NCBI GenBank assembly: GCA_951812745.1
Contig: OX638327.1
Span: 806,001 to 870,000 of the forward strand
Source of the DNA: an uncultured Nitrospirales bacterium
Lineage (GTDB): Bacteria > Nitrospirota > Nitrospiria > Nitrospirales > UBA8639
Reading direction: 5' to 3'
DNA: 64,000 bases
The notes under the pieces were generated by a model. It was not told where the DNA came from. It searched no databases and saw only the letters and a program-made list of their open reading frames with translations. Of this stretch, positions 16,188 through 31,883 are shown in pieces. Position 1 is the stretch's first letter, and every line of letters starts with the position of its first letter. The translations under genes were made by a program, and so were the position numbers.

Positions 16188-16413
16188 GCTAGCGAGAGGG
16201 CTTTACTGGGCTTCCTGAGGCATTCTGATCGTATTCGACCTATTATCATGATGTTTGCGGCGAAGAGATTGAACAAGCTGAAATCGTGGCTCTTATTCGG
16301 CCAGAAAAAACAGCGCTATGAAACAAGGTGGAAACGGTCAACGAATGACTGAACACATACAAGGATGACGGCCGCTGTGGGCAGCAGCGGCTCACCACCA
16401 TGGCTGGCCGGAG

Positions 16414-19400
16414 TCAAAAGCCCCAGGTAACCTGGCAGTGGAGGCCTTGGTTAACCGGCTGGGGCCCGGCGGCTTTCTGGCGCTGGCCTTCCAGGCTGAT
16501 GTGCAACCCGGAAAACCGGCGTCCACCCACCTGCCAGCGGGTCCCCAGCCGCCACGTCCGGGCCGGGCCCGCCTCCAGCACTGTGCCCGCATAGGGGGTC
16601 ACCACCCCCAGGTTCCCCGGGGCGAACGCATAGCCGACCTCCGCGTGCAGCCGCCCGCCGGGAGCCTGCCGCGGGCCCGCCGGGGTCGGCCGCGTCCACA
16701 AGCCTTCCACCCCGCTCGTGGTCGCCCCCCAGGCTGGAGTGAGCGTTAAGGCCAAGCCCTGGCCTAGGCCGCCCGGCGCCAGCCGCACCGTGCCCCAGGC
16801 GCCCCATTCTTGATACGCACTGGCTGCATGCGCCAGCAGCACCCGGCCTCCCGCGTCCACCGTCAGCCCGTAGCCCGGGTCCGCGTACTGCACCTGGCCG
16901 CCGACCTCCACCCCCAGGCCCGTCTCCGCATCCCCCCAGTCATGCCGCAGGCCGATTTCCGCAGCCGGCCGGAGAGTCCGGCCTTCGGCCCACGTCACGG
17001 CCCGCGAGCCTTCCAGGACCAGCCGCAGCCGATGCACCGCCGCGTCCTCGGCCGGGAGGAGCCCCGCCGCGGCGGCGTCCGCCGTCATCCGCAGGAGCAT
17101 GACATCCGTCCGCGTGGCCAGTTCAAAGCCCCCGTGCTCCGGGGCGGCCAGCAGGATTCCCCGGCTCCCCACCGCCCCCAGCAGCAGCGCCGTGTCCGTG
17201 GTCGCGCGCACCCCCGGCGCCGGCGCCACGGTCAACTCGCCCCAGCCGTACCCGACCAGGCCCCACACCATCAGCCGGTCGGTGACCGCATACCGCAGGT
17301 AAGGCTGGAGACTCGTCAGGGTCTGCTCAAGTGCCCCGTCGTAGGCCTGGGCCCCGGCTTGGGTCAGCGCGCCGTCGCCCCGGCTGTGCGACACCGCGAC
17401 CCCGGCCAGCCACCGATCCCAGGCCCCATCCACCCCCAGGGTCCCCGTCAGCACGTCCCCGTCCACGGCCAGGGCGTCGGCGTGCCCGTTAAACTGCAGG
17501 GTCCCGACCCGGCCCCAGGCCGTCACCCGCGGGCCCGGCGCGGCCGCCGGGTCGCGCCCGAGGGTCAGCTGGAAGGTACTGCCCACCAACAGGTCGCGGA
17601 GCGTCACTTGGCGGGGCTGCACCTGGCGCGGGTCCGGGCCCCGGCCGGCTGCGCCGGCCGAGTCCGCCCCCCACCGGCTGGACCCCGGCGCGGCCCCCGC
17701 CCCGCGCTCGCCCAGCGGCAGCCGATAGCCGCCCACCGTCACCTGCGACCCCTGCCCCGGCGCGGCGCGCAACCGCGTGCCCACCGCGTCCGTTACCTGT
17801 GTCGCCACCGTCCGCCCAAACCGCGCCAGCCACGCCGTCAGCCCCGGGGCCGACACGACCCGCCGCGTCACCGTCACCGTGTAGGTCTGCCGGGTCAGGG
17901 TGTCCACGCCGGTCACCGTCACCTGCAACGTGGTGCGGCCGAAGGGCAGGGCCACGTCGTGCGCCGCCGTCGCCGCGTCCGCATCCGCGGGGGTCAGCGC
18001 CACCGTCGCCGCGGGGTCGGTGGGCGTCGCCGTAAGCGTGAGGTCCGCCACGTGGGACGCCACGGTCGCCGTATAGCTCAGCCGGTCCGGGGCGAACGCC
18101 GGGGTCAGCGGGACCCCAGGCAGCGTCAGTTCACTAAGCGTCGCGTCGACCAGAACCGTCAAGTACTCGCCTTGGAACGCCGCCACGGCGTTACCCGGCA
18201 CGTCCTGCAAGGGGGCCCGGCCGGGGGTGTAGGTCACCGTCCCCCGCGTGTTCCCCGCCACCGCCCGCGTCAGCGTGAGCGTCACCGTGGCCCCGTCGAG
18301 CGCGACGTCGGTCACTGTATAGTCGCCGGGGCGCTCCACGGCAATTGCGAAAGCCTCCGGCGCCGGGACCGCGTGCGAGGCCAAGGGCTTACTGAACGTC
18401 AGCACCAGCGCCCGGGAGGCCTGCGCCAGATCGAGCTCCGCCGCCTCGAGGGTCGGCGGGACCCCGTCCACCTGGTGCCCGGCCTGGGCCGGGACGGCCG
18501 GGTGGGGCACCCGGGCGTCCCGGGTCCCCACGAGGTTCTGGAGCGTGGCGCCGGCCGGCCGCGTCAGCGCGTTCGCGGGAATCGCGAGTCCGTCGGAGTC
18601 CACGTCGCCTGCCTTGATAGTATAGGCGAACACGACGTGCGGCGTGCCCGTGCCGCGGACGTAGGCGGCCGGCGCCCGCGTGCCGCCGAGGTCGAGCGTG
18701 AGCTGCGGCGTCCCCTGCACGGTGACGGCTTCGCTGAACGTCACCGTCACCTCCACCGTGGCGCCCCTGATGTAGGTATCGTCATCCGGGCTCCCGTCCG
18801 CCGCGTCGGGGTCCGAGGTCAGCGCCAGCGCGACAATCGTCGGCTCCCCCGTGGGGCGCGCCTGCGCCGTGTTCGACACCGCGCCCACGCCCAACTCGTT
18901 CACCGCGCGCACTTCGAACGTGTAGGTGGTGCCGTTGGTCAGCCCCCTCACCGTGTAGCGCGTAACATACGCCTCCCCGGAGGCGCTGGCCGGAATGGGG
19001 GTCCACGCCGCCCACGTGCCGCCGTCGTCGAGGCTCTGCCGGTACTGGTGCTCGGTGAGCGGGCGGCCCCCGTCGCCGCCCCGGGTCCACGCCAGCGTCA
19101 CCTGGGCGTCGTCCGCCTCCGCCGTCAGGTTCGTCGGCGGAGGCGGCACCGTCACCAGCTGCGGCGTCGCGCGCGCCGACGCCGACGCCGACCCCGCGCC
19201 CAACTCGTTCACCGCCCGCACTTGGAACAAATACTCCGTGTCGTTGGTCAGCCCCGTCACCGTGTAGCGCGTAACATGCGCCTCCCCGGGAGCGCTGGCC
19301 GGGATGCGGGTCCACGCCGCCCACGTGCCGCCATCGTCAGCGCTCTGCCGGTACTGGTGCTCGGTGAGCGGGCGCCCCCCGTCACCACCCCGGCGCCACG

Positions 19401-22400
19401 CCAGCCGCACCTGGGCATTCCCCGGCGTCGCGGTCAGGGTCGGCGCCGCGGGTGGGGTCGGCGCCACGGGCGTCGCGCGCGCCGACGCCGACGCCGACCC
19501 CGCGCCCAACTCGTTCACCGCCCGCACTTGGAACAAATACTCCGTGCCGTTGGTCAGCCCCGTCACCGTGTAGCTCATGGCGTGCGGCCCGTTCGCTTGG
19601 CTGTCCGGGATACGGGTCCAGTCGCTGAACGCCCCGCTCCCGGCCTGCTGCCGGTACTGGTGCTCGGTGAGCGGGCGCCCCCCGTCACCGCCGCTGTCCC
19701 ACGCCAGCCGCACCTGGGCGTCGTCCGATTCCGCCGTCAGGTTCGTCGGCGAGGGCGGCACCGTCACCGGTCGCGGCGTCGCACTCACCGACGCCGACCC
19801 CGCGCCCACGCCCAACTCGTTCACCGCCCGCACTTGGAACAAATACTCCGTGCCGTTGGTCAGCCCCCTCACCGTGTAGCTCGTAAAATTCACCCCCCGG
19901 GGGGCGCTGGACGGGATGGGGATCCACGCCCCCCACGTGTGGCCGGCGTCAGCGCTCTGCCGGTACTGGTGCCTGATGAGCGGGCGGCCCCCGTCACCAC
20001 CGCTGCGCCACGCCAACCGTACCTGGGCGTCGTCCGCCTCCGCCCTCAGGTTCGTCGGCGGAGGCGGCACCGTCACCCGCCGCGGCGTCGCACTCGCCGA
20101 CTCCGACGCCGCGCCCGCGCCCACGCCGTTCCCCGCACGCACCTCGAACTCGTACGTCGTGCCGTTGGTCAGCCCCGTCACCGTGTAGCTCATGGCGTGC
20201 GGCCCGTTCGCTTGGCTGTCCGGGATACGGGTCCAGTCGCTGAACGCCCCGCTCCCGGCCTGCTGCCGGTACTGGTGCTCGGTGAGCGGGCGCCCCCCGT
20301 CACCGCCGCTGTCCCACGCCAGCGTCACCTGGGTGTTCCCCGACGTCGCCGTCAAGTTCCGTGGCGCGGAGGGCCCCGTCGCCGGCGTCGCACTCACCGA
20401 CGCCGACGCCGCGCTCGCGCCCACGGCGTTCACCGCGCGGACCTCGAACGTGTACCGTGTGCCGTTGGTCAGCCCCGTCACCGTGTAGCTCGTCTCGTGC
20501 GCGCCCGCCGGGGCGCTGTCCGGGATAGGGGCCCAGTCGTCAACCGCCCCGCTCCCGGCCTGCTGCCGGTACTCGTGCCCGGTGAGCGGGCTACTGCTGT
20601 CGTCGCCGCGGGTCCACGCCAGCGTCACCTGGGCATTCTTCGGCGTCGCCGTCAGTTCCTGTGGCACGGAGGGCACCCCCGGCGTCGCGCTCTTCGCGTC
20701 AGATGCCGGGCCCTCGCCCACGGCGTTCACCGCGCGCACGTCGAACATGTACGGCGTGCCGTTGGTCAACCCCGTCACCGTGTAGCTCATAAAATGCGTC
20801 CCCCCGGGGGCGCTGTCCGGGATAGGGGTCCAGTCGCCGCCCCCCCCGCTCCCGACCTGCTGCCGGTACTCGTACTCGACGATCGGGCTCTGACCAGAGC
20901 CACCGCTGAGCCACGTCAACATCACCTCGGTGTCCCCCGCCCTCGTCCCTAGGGCCTGCGGCGCGGGCGGCGCCCCCGGCGTCACCCGCGCCTCGTTCGA
21001 CGCCGGGCTCTCACCCACGGCGTTCACCGCGCGGACAGTGAACGTATACGTGGTGCCGTTGCTCAGCCCCGTCACCGTGTAACTCGTCCCGTGCCTCCCC
21101 GCCGGGGCGCTGTCCGGGATAGGGGTCCAGTCGCCGCCCCCCCCGCTCCCGACCTGCTGCCGGTACTCGTGCCCGGTGAGCGGGCTCCCGCCCTCGCCGC
21201 GGGTCCACGTCAGCCGCACCTGGGTGTCGTCCGGCGCCGCGGTCAGGTCCCGCGGCACGGCCGGCGCCCCCGGCGTCGCCCGCGCCGCGTTCGACGCCGG
21301 GCTCGGGCCCACGGCGTTCACCGCGCGGACTTCGAACGTGTACGGCGTGCCGTTGGTCAACCCCGTCACCGTGTAGCTCATAAAATGCGTCTCCTTCAGG
21401 GCGCTGTCCGGGATAGGGGTCCAGTCGCCGCCCCCCCCGCTCCCGACCTGCTGCCGGTACTCGTGCCCGGTGAGCGGGCTCCCGCCCTCGCCGCGGGTCC
21501 ACGTCAGCCGCACCTGGGTGTCGTCCGGCGCCGCGGTCAGGTCCCGCGGCACGGCCGGCGCCCCCGGCGTCGCGCTCGCCGCGGGCGACGCCAGGCCCTC
21601 GCCCACGGCGTTCCCCGCGCGGACTTCGAACGTGTACGTCGTGCCGTTGCTCAGCCCCGTCACCCTGTAGCTCGCAACATGCGCCCCATCGGCGGCGCTG
21701 TCCGGGATGGCGCTCCACTCCGTCCACATGCTGCCGCTGTCGGTGCGCTGCCGGTACTGGTGTCCGGTGAACGGGCTGCCCCCGTCACCGCCGCGGGTCC
21801 ACGCCAGCGTCACCTGGGCATTCCCCGGCGTCGCCGTCAGGCTCGGCGGCGCGGCCGGCACCATCCTCGGCGTCGCGCTCGCCGCGGGCGACGCCAGGCT
21901 CGCGCCCGCGGTGTTCCCCGCGCGGACCTCGAACGTATACGTCGTGCCGTTACTCAGCCCCGTGACCGTGTAGCTCGCCCCGTACACGCCCGCCGGGGCG
22001 CTGTCCGGGATGGCGCTCCACTGCGTCCACGTGCTGCCGCTGTCGGTGCGCTGCCGGTACTGGTGCCCGGTGAGCGGGCTGCCCCCGTCGTCGCCGCGGG
22101 TCCACGCCAGCCGCACCTGGGCATTCCCCGGCGTCGCCGTCAGGCTCGGCGGCGCGGCCGGCACCGTCCCCGGCGTCGCGCTCGCTGCGGGCGACGCCGC
22201 GCCGTCGCCCTCGGCGTTCCCCGCGCGGACCTCGAACGTAGAGGAGGTGCCGTTGGTCAGCCCCGTCACCGTGTAGCTCTTCCCGTGCGCCCCCGCCGGG
22301 GCGCTGTCCGGGATGGCGGTCCACTCCGTCCACATGCTGCCGCTGTCGGTGCGCTGCCGGTACTGGTGCCCGGTGAGCGGGCTCCCGCCGTCGCTGCCGC

Positions 22401-25400
22401 GGGTCCACGTCAGCCACACCTGGGCGTTCCCCGGCGTCGCCGTCAGGCTCGGCGGCGCGGCCGGCACCGTCGTGGCCACCGTCGGCGTCGCCCTCGCCGG
22501 GCTGGACGCCGCGCCGTCGCCCTCGGCGTTCCCCGCGCGCACTTGGAACGTATAGCTCGTGCCGTTGGTCAAGCCCGTGACGATGTAGCTCCCCACGTGC
22601 GCGCCCTGAGGGGCGCTGTCCGGGATGGGGAGCCAGGTGTCAAACACCCCGCTCCCCGCCTGCTGCCGGTACTCGTGCCCCGTGAGCGGGCTGCCCCCGT
22701 CCCCGCGGCTGGTCCACGCCAGCCACACCTGGGTGTTCCCCGCGGTCGCCGTCAGGCTCGGCGGGGGCGGCACCGCTACCGGCGTCGCGCGCGTGCCGGC
22801 CGACGGCCCGCCGGGGCCCACGATGTTCACCGCGCGCACGTAGAACGAATACCTGATGCCGTTGGTCAGCCCGCTCACCGTGTAGCTCGCCCCGTGCGCG
22901 CCCGTAGCGGCGCTGTCCGGGATGGCGGTCCAGGCCCCAAACGCCCCGCTCCCCGCCTGCTGCCGGTACTCGTGCCCGGTAATCGGACTGCCCCCGTCGG
23001 CGCCTTGGGTCCACGCCAGCGTCACCCGGGTGTCGCCCGCGGTCGCCGTCAGGGCCGGCGGCGCGAGCGGCGCCCTCGCAGTCGTCGGCGTCGCGGTCGC
23101 TCGGTTCGACACCGTGCTCTCGCCCACGGCATTCACCGCGCGGACCACAAAACCGTACGTCGTGCCGTTGCTCAGGCCCGTCACCGTGTAGCTCATAAAA
23201 TGTGTCCCCTCGGGGGCGCTGTCCGGGATGCGGGTCCAGTCGCTGAACACCCCGCGCCCCGCCACCTGCCGGTACTCGTGCCGGGTGAGCGGGCTGCCCC
23301 CATCGTCGACGCGGGTCCACGCCAGCGTCACCCGGGCGTTGCCCGTGGTCGCGGTCAGGCTCGGCGACCCGCGCGGGATCATCGTCACCGTCGACGTCGG
23401 CGTCGAGGCCACTTGCCTCGACACCGGGCTGGGGCCCAGGGCGTTCACCGCGCGGACTTGGAACGTATAACTCGTGCCGTTGGTTAAGCCCGTGACGGTG
23501 TAGCTCGTCCCATTCAAGCCCTCGGGGGCGCTGGCCGGGATGGGGAGCCAGTTGTCGAACACCCCGCTCCCGGCCTGCTGCCGGTACTGGTGCCCGGTAA
23601 TCGGACTGCCCCCGTCACCGCCGTTGGTCCACGCCAGCGTGACCCGGGTGTTGCCCGCGGTCGCCGTCAGGGTTGTCGGCGCGGCCGGCACCGTTGCCGG
23701 CGTCGCGCTCGCTGGGGGCGAGGCCGGGCTCCGGCCCTCGGCGCTTACCGCACGCACGTGGAACGTATACCTCGTGCCGTTGGTCAAGCCCGTGACGGTG
23801 TAGCCCATCCCGTTCTGGCCCGCCGGGGCGCTGGCCGGGATGGCGGTCCACATGCTCACCGCCCCGCTCCCGGCCTGCTGCCGGTACTCGTGCCCGGTAA
23901 TCGGACTGCCCCCGTCGTCGCCTTGGATCCACTTCAGCGTCACCTCGGTGTCGCCCGGGCTCGCCGTCAGGCTCCGCGGCACAGCCGGCACGGTCACCGG
24001 CGTCGCGCGCGCTGCGGGTGACGCCGCGCCAGGGCCCACGGCGTTCCCCGCGCGCACTTGGAACGTATACGTGGTGCCGTTGGTCAGCCCGCTCACCGTG
24101 TAGCTCGTCCTGTGCGCGCCGTCGGCGGCGCTGGCCGGGATGGGGGTCCAGGCCGCCCACGTGCCGGCGACGGTGCTCACCCGGTACTCGTGCCCGGTGA
24201 GCGGACGGCCCCCGTCGCCACCGCTGGCCCACGTCAGCCACACCTGGGCGTTCCCCGCGGTCGCCGTCAGGGTCGGCGGCGCCGGCGGGACCGTCGCGGT
24301 CAGCATCGGCGTCGCACTCGCCGGGCTCGCCGCCGCGCCGTCGCCCACGGCGTTCCCCGCGCGCACTTGGAACGTATACGTGGTGCCGTTGGTCAAGCCC
24401 GTGACGGTGTAGCTCGTAAAATGCGCCCCCGTCGGGGCACTGGCCGGGATGGGGGCCCAGGCGCCGAACACCTCGCTCCCGGCCTGCTGCCGGTACTCGT
24501 ACCCGGTGAGCGGGCGGCCCCCGTCGCCGCGGCTGGTCCACGTCAGCCACACCTGGGTGTCGCCCGCACTCGCCGTCAGAGTCGGCGGGGGCGGGCTCGT
24601 CGCCGGCGTCGCATCCGCGTTGCCCGACGGCCCGCCGGGGCCCACGGCGTTCACCGCGCGCACTTGGAACGTGTAGCTCGTGCCGTTGGTCAGCCCGCTC
24701 ACCGTATAGCTCGTGGCGTGCGCCTCGTTCCCCGCGCTGTTCGGGATCGCGGTCCAGTCCGCCCACATGGTGCCGGTGTCGGTGCTTTGCCGGTACTCGT
24801 GCCTGGTGAGCGCGCTGCCCCCGTCGTCGCCTTGGGTCCACGCCAGCGTCACCCGGGTGTCGCCCGCACTCGCCGTCAGGGCCGTCGGCGCGGCCGGGGG
24901 ATCCGCGGTCATCGGCGTCGTGGACGCTGAGTGCTCCCAATCGCCGGGGCCCACGGCGTTCACCGCGTGCACCCGGTAACTGTAGGTCCTGCCGTTGCGC
25001 AGCCCCGTCACCGTGTAGCTCGAAAAATGCGCCCCATCGGGGCCGCTGTCCGGGATCGCGGTCACCGGCCCCCTACCGTCGCCCTCGTATTGCTGGTACT
25101 CGTGCCTGGTGATCGGGCTGCCCCCGTCGTGGCCGTTGGTCCACTCCAACTTCACTTGGGTGTGGCCCGCGGTCGCCGTCAGGTTCGTCGGCCTGGCCGG
25201 CGCCGTTGCGGCTGGCGTCGCGCTCGCTCCGAGCGACGCCGCGCTCTCGCCCACGGCGTTCCTCGCGCGTACTTGGAACGTGTATTCCACGCCGTTGCTC
25301 AGCCCCGTCACCGTGTAGCTCGTGGCGTTCGCCTGGTTCACCGCGCTCAAGGGGATCTCGCTCCACGTCGCCCCCGTGCCGCCTTGCCGGTACTCATGCC

Positions 25401-27183
25401 CGGTGAGCGCGCTGCCCCCGTCGTCGCCGTGGGTCCACCTCAGCGTCACCTGGGTGTGGCCCGCGGTCGCCGTCAGGGCTGTCGGCGCGGCCGGCACCGT
25501 CGCGTGCGCCGGCGTCGCGCTCGCTTGGGGCGATGGCGCACCTAGGCCCACGGCGTTCCCCACGCGTACTTGAAACGTGTATTCCACGCCGTTGCTCAAC
25601 CCCGTCACCGTGTAGCTCGTGGCGTTCGCCCCCGTCGCCGTGCTGTTCGGGATCGCGGTCCACGTCGTCCACATGTCGCCCTCGTCGGTGCTTTGCCGGT
25701 ACTCATGCCCGGTGAGCGGGCTGCCCCCGTCCTCGCCGGGGGTCCACGCCAGCATCACCTGGGTGTGGCCCGTGGTCGCCGTCAGGGCTGTCGGCGCGAC
25801 CGGCACCGTCGCGGCGGGCGTCGCGCTCGCTGCGGGCGACGCCGCGCTCTCGCCCTCGGCGTTCCTCGCGCGCACCGCGAACATGTATTCCACGCCGTTG
25901 CTCAGCCCCGTCACCGTGTAGCTCGCCCCGTTCGCCCCCGTCGCCGCGCTGTTCGGGATCGCGGTCCAGTCGCTGAACTCCTCCCCGCTCGCCGCCTGTC
26001 TGTATTCGTGCCCGGTGAGCGGGCTGCCCCCGTCGTCGCCGTGGGTCCACCTCAGCGTCACCTGGGTGTGGCCCGCGGTCGCCGTCAGGGCTGTCGGCGC
26101 GGCCGGCGCCGTCGCGGCGGGCGTCGCGCTCGCTGCGGGCGACGCCGCGCTCTCGCCCTCGGCGTTCCTCGCGCGCACCGCGAACATGTATTCCACGCCG
26201 TTGCTCAGCCCCGTCACCGTGTAGCTCGTGGCGTTCGCCCCCGTCGCCGTGCTGTTCGGGATCGCGGTCCAGTCGCTGAACTCCTCCCCGCTCGCCGCCT
26301 GTCTGTATTCGTGCCCGGTGAGCACGCTGCCCCCGTCCTCGCCGTGGGTCCACGCCAGCATCACCTGGGTGTGGCCCGCGGTCGCCGTCAGGGCTGTCGG
26401 CGCGGCCGGCACCGTTGCCGGCGTCGCGGTCACCTGGTTCGACTCCGCGCCGGGGCCCTCGGCGTTCACCGCGCGTACATAAAACGTGTACGTCGTGCCG
26501 TTGCTCAGCCCCGTCACCGTGTAGCTCGTGCCGTTCGCCCCCGTCGCCGCGCTGTTCGGGATCGCGGTCCAGTCGCTGAACTCCTCCCCGCTCGCCGCCT
26601 GTCTGTATTCGTGCCCGGTGAGCGCGCTGCCCCCATCGTCGCCGTGGGTCCACCTCAGCGTCACCTGGGTGTGGCCCGCGGTCGCCGTCAGGGCTGTCGG
26701 CGCGGCCGGCGCCGTTGCCGGCGTCGCGGTCACCTGGTTCGACTCCGCGCCGGGGCCCTCGGCGTTCACCGCGCGTACATAAAACGTGTACGTCGTGCCG
26801 TTGCTCAGCCCCGTCACCGTGTAGCTCGTGGCGTTCGCCCCCTCCGCCGCGCTGTTCGGGATGGCGGTCCACGTCGCCCCCGTGTTGTCGCCGCCGTCGA
26901 TGCTTTGCCAGTACTCATGCCCGGTGAGCGGGCTGCCCCCGTCGTCGCCTTGGGTCCACGCCAGCATCACCTGGGTGTTCCCCGCGGCCGCCGTCAGGGT
27001 CGGCGCGGCCGGCGCCGTCTGCGCCGCGGCCGGCCAGGCGACGGCCAGCAGCGCCGTCATCGCCAGCAGCGCGGCCACGGCCACGCGGCCCTCGCCCCCT
27101 TGCCCGGGCTGCGCCGGCCAACGCCGGAACGGCACTCGTTTCACAACGGGTGCCCACATGCCTGGTACGCGCCTGACGTCCAT
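16414..27183 (-). CDS. giant fibronectin type III repeat autotransporter, putative adhesin
   Basis: About 3,589 residues in one intact frame. A long basic N-region leads to the signal segment VAVAALLAMTALLAVAWPAAAQ. Then 27 fibronectin-III modules of about 100 residues follow (nt 18850 to 27015), each with patterns like PTALTATAGHTQVTLRW, GDDGGSPLTGHEYRQ and SYTVTGLSNGTTYTF. After these come a region with VTFSEAVTVQGTPQL and VDGVPPTLEAA resembling a SwmB-like domain, a cadherin-like sandwich (LSELTLPGVPLTP), and from about residue 3200 an autotransporter barrel ending in VTWGF. Only one Cys is evident. The ATG at 27183 has GGGGAGG just upstream; a TTG seven codons earlier is the alternative. 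It is likely a surface adhesin or matrix protein. GC is visibly higher than in neighbouring genes. Confidence 0.9.
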   Translation of the reverse strand: MDVRRVPGMWAPVVKRVPFRRWPAQPGQGGEGRVAVAALLAMTALLAVAWPAAAQTAPAAPTLTAAAGNTQVMLAWTQGDDGGSPLTGHEYWQSIDGGDNTGATWTAIPNSAAEGANATSYTVTGLSNGTTYTFYVRAVNAEGPGAESNQVTATPATAPAAPTALTATAGHTQVTLRWTHGDDGGSALTGHEYRQAASGEEFSDWTAIPNSAATGANGTSYTVTGLSNGTTYTFYVRAVNAEGPGAESNQVTATPATVPAAPTALTATAGHTQVMLAWTHGEDGGSVLTGHEYRQAASGEEFSDWTAIPNSTATGANATSYTVTGLSNGVEYMFAVRARNAEGESAASPAASATPAATAPAAPTALTATAGHTQVTLRWTHGDDGGSPLTGHEYRQAASGEEFSDWTAIPNSAATGANGASYTVTGLSNGVEYMFAVRARNAEGESAASPAASATPAATVPVAPTALTATTGHTQVMLAWTPGEDGGSPLTGHEYRQSTDEGDMWTTWTAIPNSTATGANATSYTVTGLSNGVEYTFQVRVGNAVGLGAPSPQASATPAHATVPAAPTALTATAGHTQVTLRWTHGDDGGSALTGHEYRQGGTGATWSEIPLSAVNQANATSYTVTGLSNGVEYTFQVRARNAVGESAASLGASATPAATAPARPTNLTATAGHTQVKLEWTNGHDGGSPITRHEYQQYEGDGRGPVTAIPDSGPDGAHFSSYTVTGLRNGRTYSYRVHAVNAVGPGDWEHSASTTPMTADPPAAPTALTASAGDTRVTLAWTQGDDGGSALTRHEYRQSTDTGTMWADWTAIPNSAGNEAHATSYTVSGLTNGTSYTFQVRAVNAVGPGGPSGNADATPATSPPPPTLTASAGDTQVWLTWTSRGDGGRPLTGYEYRQQAGSEVFGAWAPIPASAPTGAHFTSYTVTGLTNGTTYTFQVRAGNAVGDGAAASPASATPMLTATVPPAPPTLTATAGNAQVWLTWASGGDGGRPLTGHEYRVSTVAGTWAAWTPIPASAADGAHRTSYTVSGLTNGTTYTFQVRAGNAVGPGAASPAARATPVTVPAVPRSLTASPGDTEVTLKWIQGDDGGSPITGHEYRQQAGSGAVSMWTAIPASAPAGQNGMGYTVTGLTNGTRYTFHVRAVSAEGRSPASPPASATPATVPAAPTTLTATAGNTRVTLAWTNGGDGGSPITGHQYRQQAGSGVFDNWLPIPASAPEGLNGTSYTVTGLTNGTSYTFQVRAVNALGPSPVSRQVASTPTSTVTMIPRGSPSLTATTGNARVTLAWTRVDDGGSPLTRHEYRQVAGRGVFSDWTRIPDSAPEGTHFMSYTVTGLSNGTTYGFVVRAVNAVGESTVSNRATATPTTARAPLAPPALTATAGDTRVTLAWTQGADGGSPITGHEYRQQAGSGAFGAWTAIPDSAATGAHGASYTVSGLTNGIRYSFYVRAVNIVGPGGPSAGTRATPVAVPPPPSLTATAGNTQVWLAWTSRGDGGSPLTGHEYRQQAGSGVFDTWLPIPDSAPQGAHVGSYIVTGLTNGTSYTFQVRAGNAEGDGAASSPARATPTVATTVPAAPPSLTATPGNAQVWLTWTRGSDGGSPLTGHQYRQRTDSGSMWTEWTAIPDSAPAGAHGKSYTVTGLTNGTSSTFEVRAGNAEGDGAASPAASATPGTVPAAPPSLTATPGNAQVRLAWTRGDDGGSPLTGHQYRQRTDSGSTWTQWSAIPDSAPAGVYGASYTVTGLSNGTTYTFEVRAGNTAGASLASPAASATPRMVPAAPPSLTATPGNAQVTLAWTRGGDGGSPFTGHQYRQRTDSGSMWTEWSAIPDSAADGAHVASYRVTGLSNGTTYTFEVRAGNAVGEGLASPAASATPGAPAVPRDLTAAPDDTQVRLTWTRGEGGSPLTGHEYRQQVGSGGGGDWTPIPDSALKETHFMSYTVTGLTNGTPYTFEVRAVNAVGPSPASNAARATPGAPAVPRDLTAAPDDTQVRLTWTRGEGGSPLTGHEYRQQVGSGGGGDWTPIPDSAPAGRHGTSYTVTGLSNGTTYTFTVRAVNAVGESPASNEARVTPGAPPAPQALGTRAGDTEVMLTWLSGGSGQSPIVEYEYRQQVGSGGGGDWTPIPDSAPGGTHFMSYTVTGLTNGTPYMFDVRAVNAVGEGPASDAKSATPGVPSVPQELTATPKNAQVTLAWTRGDDSSSPLTGHEYRQQAGSGAVDDWAPIPDSAPAGAHETSYTVTGLTNGTRYTFEVRAVNAVGASAASASVSATPATGPSAPRNLTATSGNTQVTLAWDSGGDGGRPLTEHQYRQQAGSGAFSDWTRIPDSQANGPHAMSYTVTGLTNGTTYEFEVRAGNGVGAGAASESASATPRRVTVPPPPTNLRAEADDAQVRLAWRSGGDGGRPLIRHQYRQSADAGHTWGAWIPIPSSAPRGVNFTSYTVRGLTNGTEYLFQVRAVNELGVGAGSASVSATPRPVTVPPSPTNLTAESDDAQVRLAWDSGGDGGRPLTEHQYRQQAGSGAFSDWTRIPDSQANGPHAMSYTVTGLTNGTEYLFQVRAVNELGAGSASASARATPVAPTPPAAPTLTATPGNAQVRLAWRRGGDGGRPLTEHQYRQSADDGGTWAAWTRIPASAPGEAHVTRYTVTGLTNDTEYLFQVRAVNELGAGSASASARATPQLVTVPPPPTNLTAEADDAQVTLAWTRGGDGGRPLTEHQYRQSLDDGGTWAAWTPIPASASGEAYVTRYTVRGLTNGTTYTFEVRAVNELGVGAVSNTAQARPTGEPTIVALALTSDPDAADGSPDDDTYIRGATVEVTVTFSEAVTVQGTPQLTLDLGGTRAPAAYVRGTGTPHVVFAYTIKAGDVDSDGLAIPANALTRPAGATLQNLVGTRDARVPHPAVPAQAGHQVDGVPPTLEAAELDLAQASRALVLTFSKPLASHAVPAPEAFAIAVERPGDYTVTDVALDGATVTLTLTRAVAGNTRGTVTYTPGRAPLQDVPGNAVAAFQGEYLTVLVDATLSELTLPGVPLTPAFAPDRLSYTATVASHVADLTLTATPTDPAATVALTPADADAATAAHDVALPFGRTTLQVTVTGVDTLTRQTYTVTVTRRVVSAPGLTAWLARFGRTVATQVTDAVGTRLRAAPGQGSQVTVGGYRLPLGERGAGAAPGSSRWGADSAGAAGRGPDPRQVQPRQVTLRDLLVGSTFQLTLGRDPAAAPGPRVTAWGRVGTLQFNGHADALAVDGDVLTGTLGVDGAWDRWLAGVAVSHSRGDGALTQAGAQAYDGALEQTLTSLQPYLRYAVTDRLMVWGLVGYGWGELTVAPAPGVRATTDTALLLGAVGSRGILLAAPEHGGFELATRTDVMLLRMTADAAAAGLLPAEDAAVHRLRLVLEGSRAVTWAEGRTLRPAAEIGLRHDWGDAETGLGVEVGGQVQYADPGYGLTVDAGGRVLLAHAASAYQEWGAWGTVRLAPGGLGQGLALTLTPAWGATTSGVEGLWTRPTPAGPRQAPGGRLHAEVGYAFAPGNLGVVTPYAGTVLEAGPARTWRLGTRWQVGGRRFSGLHISLEGQRQKAAGPQPVNQGLHCQVTWGF
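18850..27015 (-). repeat. tandem array of 27 fibronectin-III-coding units of about 300 bp
   Basis: The units diverge in part, but several are near-identical: a shared stretch beginning GCGGTCCAGTCGCTGAACTC recurs at about 25961, 26261 and 26561, exactly 300 bp apart. Another long match at 21127 recurs 294 bp later at 21421, and 19576 matches 20191. This points to recent unit duplication or gene conversion. Confidence 0.85.
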
Positions 27184-27228
27184 ATCCCTCCCCAGGGTTC
27201 TCAAGATGAACGATTGAACCGGGGCGGT

Positions 27229-27257
27229 TGTATAGCATGCTAAACTTTAAATGTCAA
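27229..27257 (-). promoter_or_regulatory. strong sigma-70 promoter of the giant autotransporter
   Basis: On the reverse strand a perfect TTGACA, 17 nt, then TATACA. The expected transcript start is near 27222, giving a leader of about 40 nt before the ATG at 27183. Confidence 0.75.
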
Positions 27258-27470
27258 TTATACTGGTTTCTCTTTTTTGCATGCAGCCTGTTCTCGCCGG
27301 CAGGGGCCACCCCTGTCCTGGGGCTTGCCCAGACCCCGACGTTGTCAGCAGGGACCCGGGGAGGGCGAGCCGACTTGGTCCTCGCCTCGGGAATTGACTG
27401 GACCACGTCGACTATGCCACATTCGTTTTTGCTCTCTCGTACGCACTTGAAGACGAAGAAATGAATTGGT

Positions 27471-30312: not shown

Positions 30313-31725
30313 TTACCGCGACAGCTTATTGAAAGCATCCAGCGCGGCCACTTTGTAACATTCGGCCATGGTCGGGTAGTTAAAAACCGTGGACAAAAAG
30401 TAATCCAAGCCTCCACCCAATCCCAACACGGCTTGGCCGATGTGCACCAATTCCGTGGCGCCCATTCCGATGACGTGCACGCCCAGCAGTTGGCGATTCT
30501 TGCGATGGAACAGCAGTTTCAAGAGTCCGCTGTCGTCTCCCATGATGTGCCCGCGCGCGATTTCCCGATAGCGGGCCAGCCCGATCTCATAGGGAATTTT
30601 TTTCATGGTGAGGTCCTGTTCATTCTCGCCTACCATGGAAATTTCCGGAATGGCATAAATCCCGATGGGGAAGTACGTCCTCATGGGCTCTGCCTTCACC
30701 CCAAAGGCGTAACAGGCCGCAAGACGACCTTGCTCGGACGAGGTGGCCGCTAAACTGGGATAGCCGATCACGTCCCCAGCCGCGAAAATATGCGGCACGG
30801 CAGTCTGAAATCGTTCATTCACCTTCAGCCGGCCCCGTTCGTCGGCTTCGAGACCTGCCCTCGCCAAATCTAACGATTCCGTCGCCCCCATTCGGCCGAC
30901 TGAAAACAACACCAGCTCGGACACGAGCTTTTTCCCCGACTCCAAACGAATGACGGCCTTCGAAGAAGGCCCCTCGGAACATTCCATCTTGTCGACCGTT
31001 TCCCCAAGTCGAAAGGTCACGCCGTAATTGCGCATCTGATGAATCAGTTCATCCACGATTTCGGTATCCAAAAATTCCAAGGGCCGCTGACGTGTATCCA
31101 CCAACGTCACGTCGACGCCAAGGGAGGCAAACATCGAGGCGTATTCGAGACCGATCACCCCTGCGCCCACGACGACCATGGTCCGCGGAAGGCGTTCCAG
31201 ACTCATCACTTGATCACTGGTAATAATCTGAGGATGATCGCCGACCCCTCCCCACAGTGGGGAAGGAACGGTCCCCACAGCCACCAGGATGTGTTGCCCA
31301 TGCACCCATTGCAGGGCATCGTCTCCGAAGACCTGGACCCTGTTGGCGTCAAGAAACGATGCTTCGCCCCGAATCATCATGACGTCATTGCGTTGCAGTT
31401 GTCGTTCGACTACCTCCCCTTCTCGTTCCACTACCTCGTTGACTCTCGAAAACAACTGATCGAGCCCTGGGCGGAACGGAGCGGCAAATCCATGACGTTT
31501 CCGAAATTGTTCGGCCTGCCGGCCAAACGCAAGGACGGCTTCGCGAAAGGTCTTGCTGGGGATGGTTCCCGTATCCAGACAGCCTCCCCCTACGATCCGC
31601 CGTTTTTCGATCACCACCACTCGCTTGCCCAACTTCGCCGCTTGCACCGCGGCCCGCTGGCCCGCCGGTCCGCTTCCAAGACACACAAGATCGGCGTCTA
31701 TCATGTCACGTATGGTTTTTGGCAT
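30313..31725 (-). CDS. sthA: Si-specific NAD(P)+ transhydrogenase (soluble pyridine nucleotide transhydrogenase)
   Basis: FAD-dependent enzyme exchanging hydride between NADPH and NAD+. The 470 residues have the FAD motif LGSGPAGQRAAVQAA, the NAD motif VVVGAGVIGLEYASMF and the second FAD motif FAAGDVIGYPSLA. Instead of the usual redox disulfide CxxxxC, it has GGGCLDTGTIPSKTFR, where the second Cys is Thr; this marks SthA against lipoamide dehydrogenase or glutathione reductase. The ATG at 31725 (MPKTIRDMIDADL) gives the family-typical N-terminus with GGAG about 10 nt upstream; an ATG 11 codons earlier is possible. It balances NADH and NADPH pools. Confidence 0.9.
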   Translation of the reverse strand: MPKTIRDMIDADLVCLGSGPAGQRAAVQAAKLGKRVVVIEKRRIVGGGCLDTGTIPSKTFREAVLAFGRQAEQFRKRHGFAAPFRPGLDQLFSRVNEVVEREGEVVERQLQRNDVMMIRGEASFLDANRVQVFGDDALQWVHGQHILVAVGTVPSPLWGGVGDHPQIITSDQVMSLERLPRTMVVVGAGVIGLEYASMFASLGVDVTLVDTRQRPLEFLDTEIVDELIHQMRNYGVTFRLGETVDKMECSEGPSSKAVIRLESGKKLVSELVLFSVGRMGATESLDLARAGLEADERGRLKVNERFQTAVPHIFAAGDVIGYPSLAATSSEQGRLAACYAFGVKAEPMRTYFPIGIYAIPEISMVGENEQDLTMKKIPYEIGLARYREIARGHIMGDDSGLLKLLFHRKNRQLLGVHVIGMGATELVHIGQAVLGLGGGLDYFLSTVFNYPTMAECYKVAALDAFNKLSR

Positions 31726-31883
31726 GTTCGACTTTCTCCGAGATTGCGACTCGTTCATGGTGGTTCAGCGTATCAGCCTGTTGCGGATGGCTGCGCAGAC
31801 GTTTGATAATATCCATCAGGATATCATGGTTCCATTAAAAAATTGGCTCATCACGGCTCTTTGCTCCTGCTTTCCATGACACG

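Follow-up and report, generated by a model that had tools for sequence, protein, structure and literature searches.

What kind of protein is encoded by a single GC-rich reading frame of 10.8 kb in a Nitrospirales genome, by what route would it leave the cell, and did the gene come from another lineage? The stretch analysed (the window, 64,000 nucleotides) comprises positions 806001-870000 of a complete one-contig genome of 2,346,994 bases. We propose, with a probability of about 0.75, that the product of this frame, FN3-A, is a giant member of the type V autotransporter family that is exported and kept uncleaved as a surface fibre, most likely serving attachment. The fibre is proposed because of the architecture of FN3-A, which is set out here together with the neighbouring features.

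16337-16355, minus strand: IS/MITE-like end TGTTCAGTCATTCGTTGAC, 19 bp, about 60 bp 3' of FN3-A
16414-27183, minus strand: FN3-A, giant autotransporter-like gene (uninterrupted ORF, Pfam matches, GC3 0.92)
16417-17577, minus strand: predicted C-terminal outer-membrane beta-barrel with an aromatic last residue (TIGR01414; AlphaFold; best matches type Va translocators)
17767-17850, minus strand: predicted helix with WLARFGRTVA, a motif conserved in relatives
17860-18129, minus strand: Cadherin-like beta-sandwich domain (PF12733, residues 3026-3115, E 7e-15)
18223-18468, minus strand: SWM repeat domain (SWM_repeat PF13753, residues 2913-2994, E 6e-9)
18838-27009, minus strand: 27-module FN3 array with a spacing of 98-104 aa (27 PF00041 stretches; module spacing)
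27019-27183, minus strand: signal segment with basic start, hydrophobic core VAVAALLAMTALLAVAW and PAAAQ, read from the sequence by eye
27184-27386, minus strand: upstream segment of 203 bp common to FN3-A and its sister gene FN3-B (203 of 205 alignment columns identical)
27229-27257, minus strand: promoter-like TTGACA-17-TATACA, the sole match in the window

Reading frame and upstream region

A first-pass annotation of this DNA had described one uninterrupted gene of about 3,590 residues, and the frame is indeed open throughout, giving 3,589 aa from the ATG at 27183 that lies behind GGGAGGGAT. An alternative TTG start at 27204 would extend the ORF to 16414-27204 and the product by seven residues to 3,596 aa. 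Among these 3,596 residues there is one cysteine, located in the barrel six residues before the end, so that the passenger is cysteine-free; the mean cysteine content of ORFs in the window is 0.9%. The near-consensus promoter described by the same annotation stands in part: the -35 box is a perfect TTGACA followed by a 17-bp spacer, but TATACA agrees with TATAAT at only four of six positions and lacks the final T, which is why a stricter promoter scan did not report it. An exact copy of the promoter-like string precedes FN3-B, although its conservation proves little because the copy lies inside duplicated DNA.

Two further calls overlap the gene on the plus strand. ARAGORN places a tRNA-Gly at 26683-26758, antisense within an FN3 module, which Rfam does not confirm and which is probably false. 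An antisense ORF of 1,380 aa at 16810-20952 was rejected as a gene and taken as a high-GC mirror frame of the kind expected opposite a GC-rich repeat gene.

Passenger domains and predicted barrel fold

The passenger is dominated by FN3 modules. Pfam reports 27 stretches of PF00041 (E 1e-273), every one above the curated cut-off of 25 bits applied in the genome search. The beta-helical passenger that is usual, though not universal, in type Va proteins is absent from FN3-A, in which FN3, SWM and Cadherin-like sandwiches are found instead.

Assignment of the C-terminal part required several lines of comparison. The Pfam barrel families gave no match above cut-off in FN3-A, just a weak outer-membrane barrel match, and the NCBIfam autotransporter barrel model TIGR01414 scored 22 bits against a cut-off of 16. 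The Pfam Autotransporter family PF03797 was matched by 14 of 77 relatives (best 9e-14; the majority of members score under the Pfam cut-off) and was above cut-off in the shortest, 862-aa barrel member of the same genome. A barrel profile run against the sequences of solved structures found no convincing relative, and the autotransporter link thus rests on family models and fold; a viral structure library likewise yielded nothing convincing.

An AlphaFold model built from the alignment of 77 relatives (pLDDT 79, pTM 0.75) contained a helix at 11-38 and 18 strands, and a second model, of the short member from the same genome (pLDDT 84), contained a helix at 18-60 and again 18 strands. The highest-ranking structural matches of the first and second models, respectively, were EspP (Z 22.8 and 19.6), NalP (22.4 and 18.0) and Hbp (21.8 and 18.6), followed by AIDA-I, EstA and BrkA, such that all best matches of both models are type Va proteins with Z of ~15-23. 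This fit is incomplete: the type Va matches of the first model cover the helix plus strands 1-12, after which six more strands follow, and both models predict 18 strands versus the 12 of classical autotransporters. WLARFGRTVA recurs within three or fewer substitutions in 65 of 74 relatives, and the helix that carries it is predicted in both models and falls inside the aligned range of the EspP and NalP matches; we take it as the putative pore helix. The last residue is W or F in 66 of 73 complete relatives. Substrates of the BAM machinery usually end in an aromatic residue such as W or F, and the genome encodes one Omp85 protein.

The domain reading of the first-pass annotation (FN3, SWM, cadherin-like and barrel) accordingly proved correct in all parts. 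The HMM searches that it had suggested recover PF00041 and PF12733 and detect the barrel by TIGR01414, and by PF03797 in relatives; structure prediction for the C-terminal part yields a barrel whose best matches are solved type Va autotransporter barrels; and the FN3 and barrel matches are both significant.

Distribution of the barrel family

The annotation had regarded the fusion of an FN3 array to an autotransporter barrel as unusual, and the gene is less isolated than this implies: FN3-A is one of five barrel proteins in its own genome and has about 200 relatives elsewhere. The other four are FN3-B, a protein whose LRR repeat array spans 2,786 aa, a 3,181-aa Calx-beta protein and the 862-aa member (G000:C1:1321352-1323940). 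Another genome of the genus that consists of one contig (G013, 2.90 Mb) carries barrel loci L111-L119 (G013:C1), among them single ORFs of 13,339, 12,360, 9,186 and 9,176 aa that end in an FN3-A-type barrel. The 9,186- and 9,176-aa proteins are 82% identical over 8.7 kilo-residues. These giant ORFs contain many Calx-beta matches, and the complete G013 genome contains just three FN3 matches. The largest autotransporter of a 2012 survey was BigE at 10,429 aa (PMC3419190), a length that the 13,339-residue relative exceeds.

The window genome is that of a nitrite-oxidising bacterium whose genus is, we infer, GTDB bin75 (Ca. Nitrosymbion); the barrel of one nearest-relative record (Nitrospirales / 'Nitrospira sp. 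bin75') is identical to that of a genome of the window's genus. Members of bin75 are lineage IV Nitrospirales, mostly from sponges, with a mean genome size of 2.36 Mb and 56.9% GC (PMC11812461). The barrel was present in 14/14 genomes of the genus and in 0/182 genomes from 34 other Nitrospirales genera, and in a sample of the phylum it was present in 10/10 genomes of the genus versus 0/285 from 134 other genera. The window genome is the sole case of a giant FN3 array, a count to be read with the caution that draft genomes may hide repeats.

Scanning 84,980 species genomes returned 199 barrel relatives, and plasmid records contained none. The best 80 of the 199 come from MAGs titled Nitrospirota, Nitrospinota, Alpha-, Gamma- and Deltaproteobacteria, Latescibacterota, Gemmatimonadota, Acidobacteria, Binatia and Dehalococcoidia, and span at least eight phyla in sponge- and coral-symbiont MAGs. 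The sources that were traced are all sponges (Aplysina aerophoba bins and Ircinia jk18x bins), while attribution to the coral Porites lutea (Plut) and to further sponges was taken from MAG names; outside Nitrospirota a restriction of the barrel to sponges is suggested, although not firmly. In 30 relatives whose passengers were scanned, Calx-beta occurs in 27, SWM in 12 and FN3 in nine, with some SRCR, cadherin or Big domains, and near relatives add LRR, PKD and DUF285 passengers. The closest architecture is that of L023 (titled Deltaproteobacteria, sponge label), which combines FN3, cadherin and SWM domains with a barrel 61% identical to that of FN3-A. A search of the open-access literature, with subscription papers outside its scope, returned no description of this barrel family.

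Proposed export route and role of the fibre

In the route that we propose, FN3-A would be exported by Sec and its C-terminal barrel would be inserted by the BAM machinery, to which the single Omp85 may belong, with the conserved helix seated in the barrel pore. The cysteine-free passenger would then pass to the cell exterior, where the 27 FN3 modules may fold into an uncleaved fibre of roughly 90 nm whose base is formed by the SWM and cadherin-like domains. Such a fibre would display host-like domains and most likely mediate attachment to the sponge matrix or to neighbouring cells. Export and a fibre are likely on the predicted architecture, and adhesion to the host is plausible.

The strongest competitor, to which we give somewhat less than an even chance, accepts the exported fibre and assigns it a main role other than attachment to the host, namely binding neighbouring bacteria or polysaccharide, protecting the cell against phage or phagocytosis, or mimicking host surface patterns. 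Bacterial proteins of carbohydrate binding and of biofilms likewise contain FN3, cadherin and Calx-beta domains, as discussed in PMC8163846 and PMC10947273. Variation between modules, for which the median dN/dS is ~0.8, peaks in loop regions, as expected for a variable surface, and the pooled dN/dS of the FG-loop segment is ~1.6 as a rough estimate. Against this, the restriction to a largely sponge-associated genus and the recurrence among symbionts of sponges and corals from many phyla favour a role linked to the host, without distinguishing between such roles. A second alternative, which we regard as unlikely, is that the passenger is released after export as a cleaved fibre or soluble decoy and is not kept on the cell. 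Some type Va autotransporters, those of the EspP family, do cleave themselves in the pore, but in this family the helix and linker are conserved and no obvious conserved cleavage pair was apparent by eye.

GC content and possible transfer between phyla

The annotation had noted a GC content visibly above that of the flanking genes and had taken it to suggest horizontal acquisition. The compositional contrast is real, with GC 73.8% and GC3 0.92 in FN3-A versus 50-60% and 0.55-0.78 in 15 other window genes, but it does not establish acquisition. Barrel-family genes exceed their flanking ORFs in GC3 at 59 of 67 loci across hosts, by a mean of 0.10 (Wilcoxon p ~2e-10, the 67 loci not being independent), and family GC3 tracks flank GC3 weakly (rho 0.25). 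Elevated GC3 characterises the barrel family across hosts and the genome also carries a recent sister of FN3-A, so composition does not show transfer of FN3-A. The bias could stem from biased conversion during repeat recombination or from circulation among GC-rich hosts. That FN3-A alone was recently acquired from a GC-rich donor is correspondingly improbable: its GC3 stands out from that of its neighbours and the gene is missing from the same place in relatives, yet the high-GC3 tendency is found in all family genes and all hosts, the barrel is present throughout the genus, and the nearest relatives outside it are ~60% identical in the barrel, such that a recent donor is not apparent.

GC by itself is poor evidence of transfer, and the barrel tree serves better. 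On this quick tree, 19 changes are required to place the labels of nine phyla, against a minimum of 8, with the caution that bins may contain contaminants and that paralogy can look like transfer. A fully supported group of 12 unites FN3-A and FN3-B with rows from Gemmatimonadota, Latescibacterota and Deltaproteobacteria, and the remaining barrels of the window genome lie outside it. One pair was examined more closely: the 862-aa gene and positions 8609-11149 of L090, a Gammaproteobacterial sponge MAG, are 66% identical over their length. Misbinning of L090 as a piece of the genus was tested against the neighbouring nuoD and rejected, since this gene is just ~50-56% identical to that of the genus; a transfer between phyla is the likely origin of this pair, judged from sequence comparison. 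For the family, then, horizontal acquisition is plausible from its restriction to one genus and the mixing of phyla in the tree, and this much of the earlier suggestion survives.

A sister gene and a mosaic of modules

FN3-B (2239445-2253028 of the genome) encodes 4,527 aa comprising 36 FN3 modules, its barrel is 96% identical to that of FN3-A, and the two genes account for 63 of the 64 FN3 matches in the whole genome. Homology between them starts abruptly at the shared upstream segment and ends ~10 bp past the stop codon, which indicates that the gene and its promoter region were duplicated as a unit. Within the arrays, modules 98-100% identical alternate with others at 80-88%. Modules A8-A11 correspond to B11-B14 at 98-100%, A14-A17 to B17-B20 at 99-100% and A26 to B35 at 99.7%, and between these lie divergent pairs such as A12/B15 (~80% or less) and A7/B10 (86%), so that differences per module pair number 0-7 in some and 59-76 in others. 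This alternation is not what one duplication followed by even divergence would leave, and exchange or conversion between the copies can explain it; we conclude from the alignments that FN3-A and FN3-B appear to have recombined with each other. Modules have also been duplicated locally (B24-B25 as B28-B29; B5, B7 and B8; A3/A4; A19/A20).

Assembly errors in long repeats could in principle inflate such genes or make them falsely mosaic, and highly repetitive genes are hard to assemble, but we consider this very improbable given a one-contig genome, ORFs open over 10.8 and 13.6 kb, differing flanks, divergent modules at defined positions and giants in the second single-contig genome of the genus.

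Taken as a family, the barrel genes may diversify through the swapping of passengers on a common barrel, tandem amplification of modules, recombination between sister genes and transfer between phyla.

Genomic locus and mobile elements

The order sigma factor, groES, groEL is kept in relatives and the genes after groEL vary. Seven relatives carry a 310-323-aa ATPase-like gene and a transketolase ahead of ilvD, and six of these seven neighbourhoods also hold phosphogluconate pathway genes (all names read from sequence). None of the seven contains the giant gene, and their ATPase-like, transketolase and phosphogluconate genes are absent from the window. The variable order after groEL and the absence of the giant gene place FN3-A at a gene-order breakpoint. 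The comparison of related genomes at this locus that the first-pass annotation had called for thus finds the gene missing in the relatives examined. A single ancestral groEL-ilvD junction was sought without success in relatives, in which the two genes lie far apart or on separate contigs. Elsewhere in the window, a 255-aa ORF on the plus strand (31039-31806) has no Pfam match.

The element end TGTTCAGTCATTCGTTGAC occurs in 22 exact copies in the genome, versus none of a reversed control pattern. Three of the five barrel genes have it at a distance of less than 1 kb: FN3-A as listed above, FN3-B at ~400 bp on its 3' side, and the LRR member on either side. Its copies include 245-bp inverted pairs, for example L006 15934-16178. 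This placement suggests, without proof, that mobile elements may have helped to move or duplicate barrel genes. Between FN3-B and the next gene, a broken transposase-like frame was judged by eye at L006 16350-16890.

Significance and relation to known systems

In sponge MAGs, FN3 and cadherin genes are enriched and inferred to be laterally transferred, and Calx-beta is enriched (PMC8163846, PMC9531527); PMC8163846 describes few lineages as owning secretion systems to deliver eukaryotic-like repeats. A shared self-exporting barrel would offer a direct answer to how the FN3, cadherin, LRR and Calx-beta domains of sponge symbionts find a route outward, and its recurrence in symbionts of many phyla suggests a shared and exchanged way to display host-like proteins. 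We tentatively extend this, at somewhat less than even confidence, to the idea that one exchangeable 18-strand barrel family is a common symbiont export route for eukaryotic-like domains, with recombining sisters varying the fibre. The barrel could serve as a marker for counting such display proteins across hosts, and through the recombining sister genes one could learn if symbionts vary their surface within one sponge. FN3-A is an autotransporter-type protein with an FN3-array passenger, one of a symbiont-linked family in which passengers are swapped and giant genes recombine.

FN3-A shares with the type Va proteins EspP, NalP, Hbp, AIDA-I, BrkA and EstA the order of putative signal segment, passenger, predicted helix and predicted C-terminal aromatic-ended barrel, and differs from them in its beta-sandwich array, where theirs is mostly a beta-helix, and in six extra predicted C-terminal strands. 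Known autotransporter passengers are mostly beta-helices, and long beta-sandwich arrays are atypical. Inverse autotransporters (intimin and invasin, type Ve) also present Ig-like sandwich arrays on an outer-membrane barrel, but they need that barrel at the N terminus and in FN3-A it is C-terminal, so we rejected this assignment. Like the FN3-A family, BigE (PMC3419190) is a giant autotransporter grown by repeat amplification; it is kin to BrkA-type passengers and belongs to Betaproteobacteria, whereas the FN3-A family builds on FN3 and Calx-beta modules in other phyla and reaches up to 13,339 aa. Giant adhesins of the type I secretion route (RTX proteins and others, for example SiiE) are likewise giant surface proteins of repeated beta-sandwiches, but they depend on a type I exporter and FN3-A carries its own barrel. 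The eukaryotic-like FN3, cadherin and Calx-beta proteins of sponge MAGs (PMC8163846, PMC9531527) share with FN3-A their domain classes, habitat and inferred lateral transfer; these studies count domains, and their passages on such proteins do not describe the shared export barrel by which the FN3-A family links these domains.
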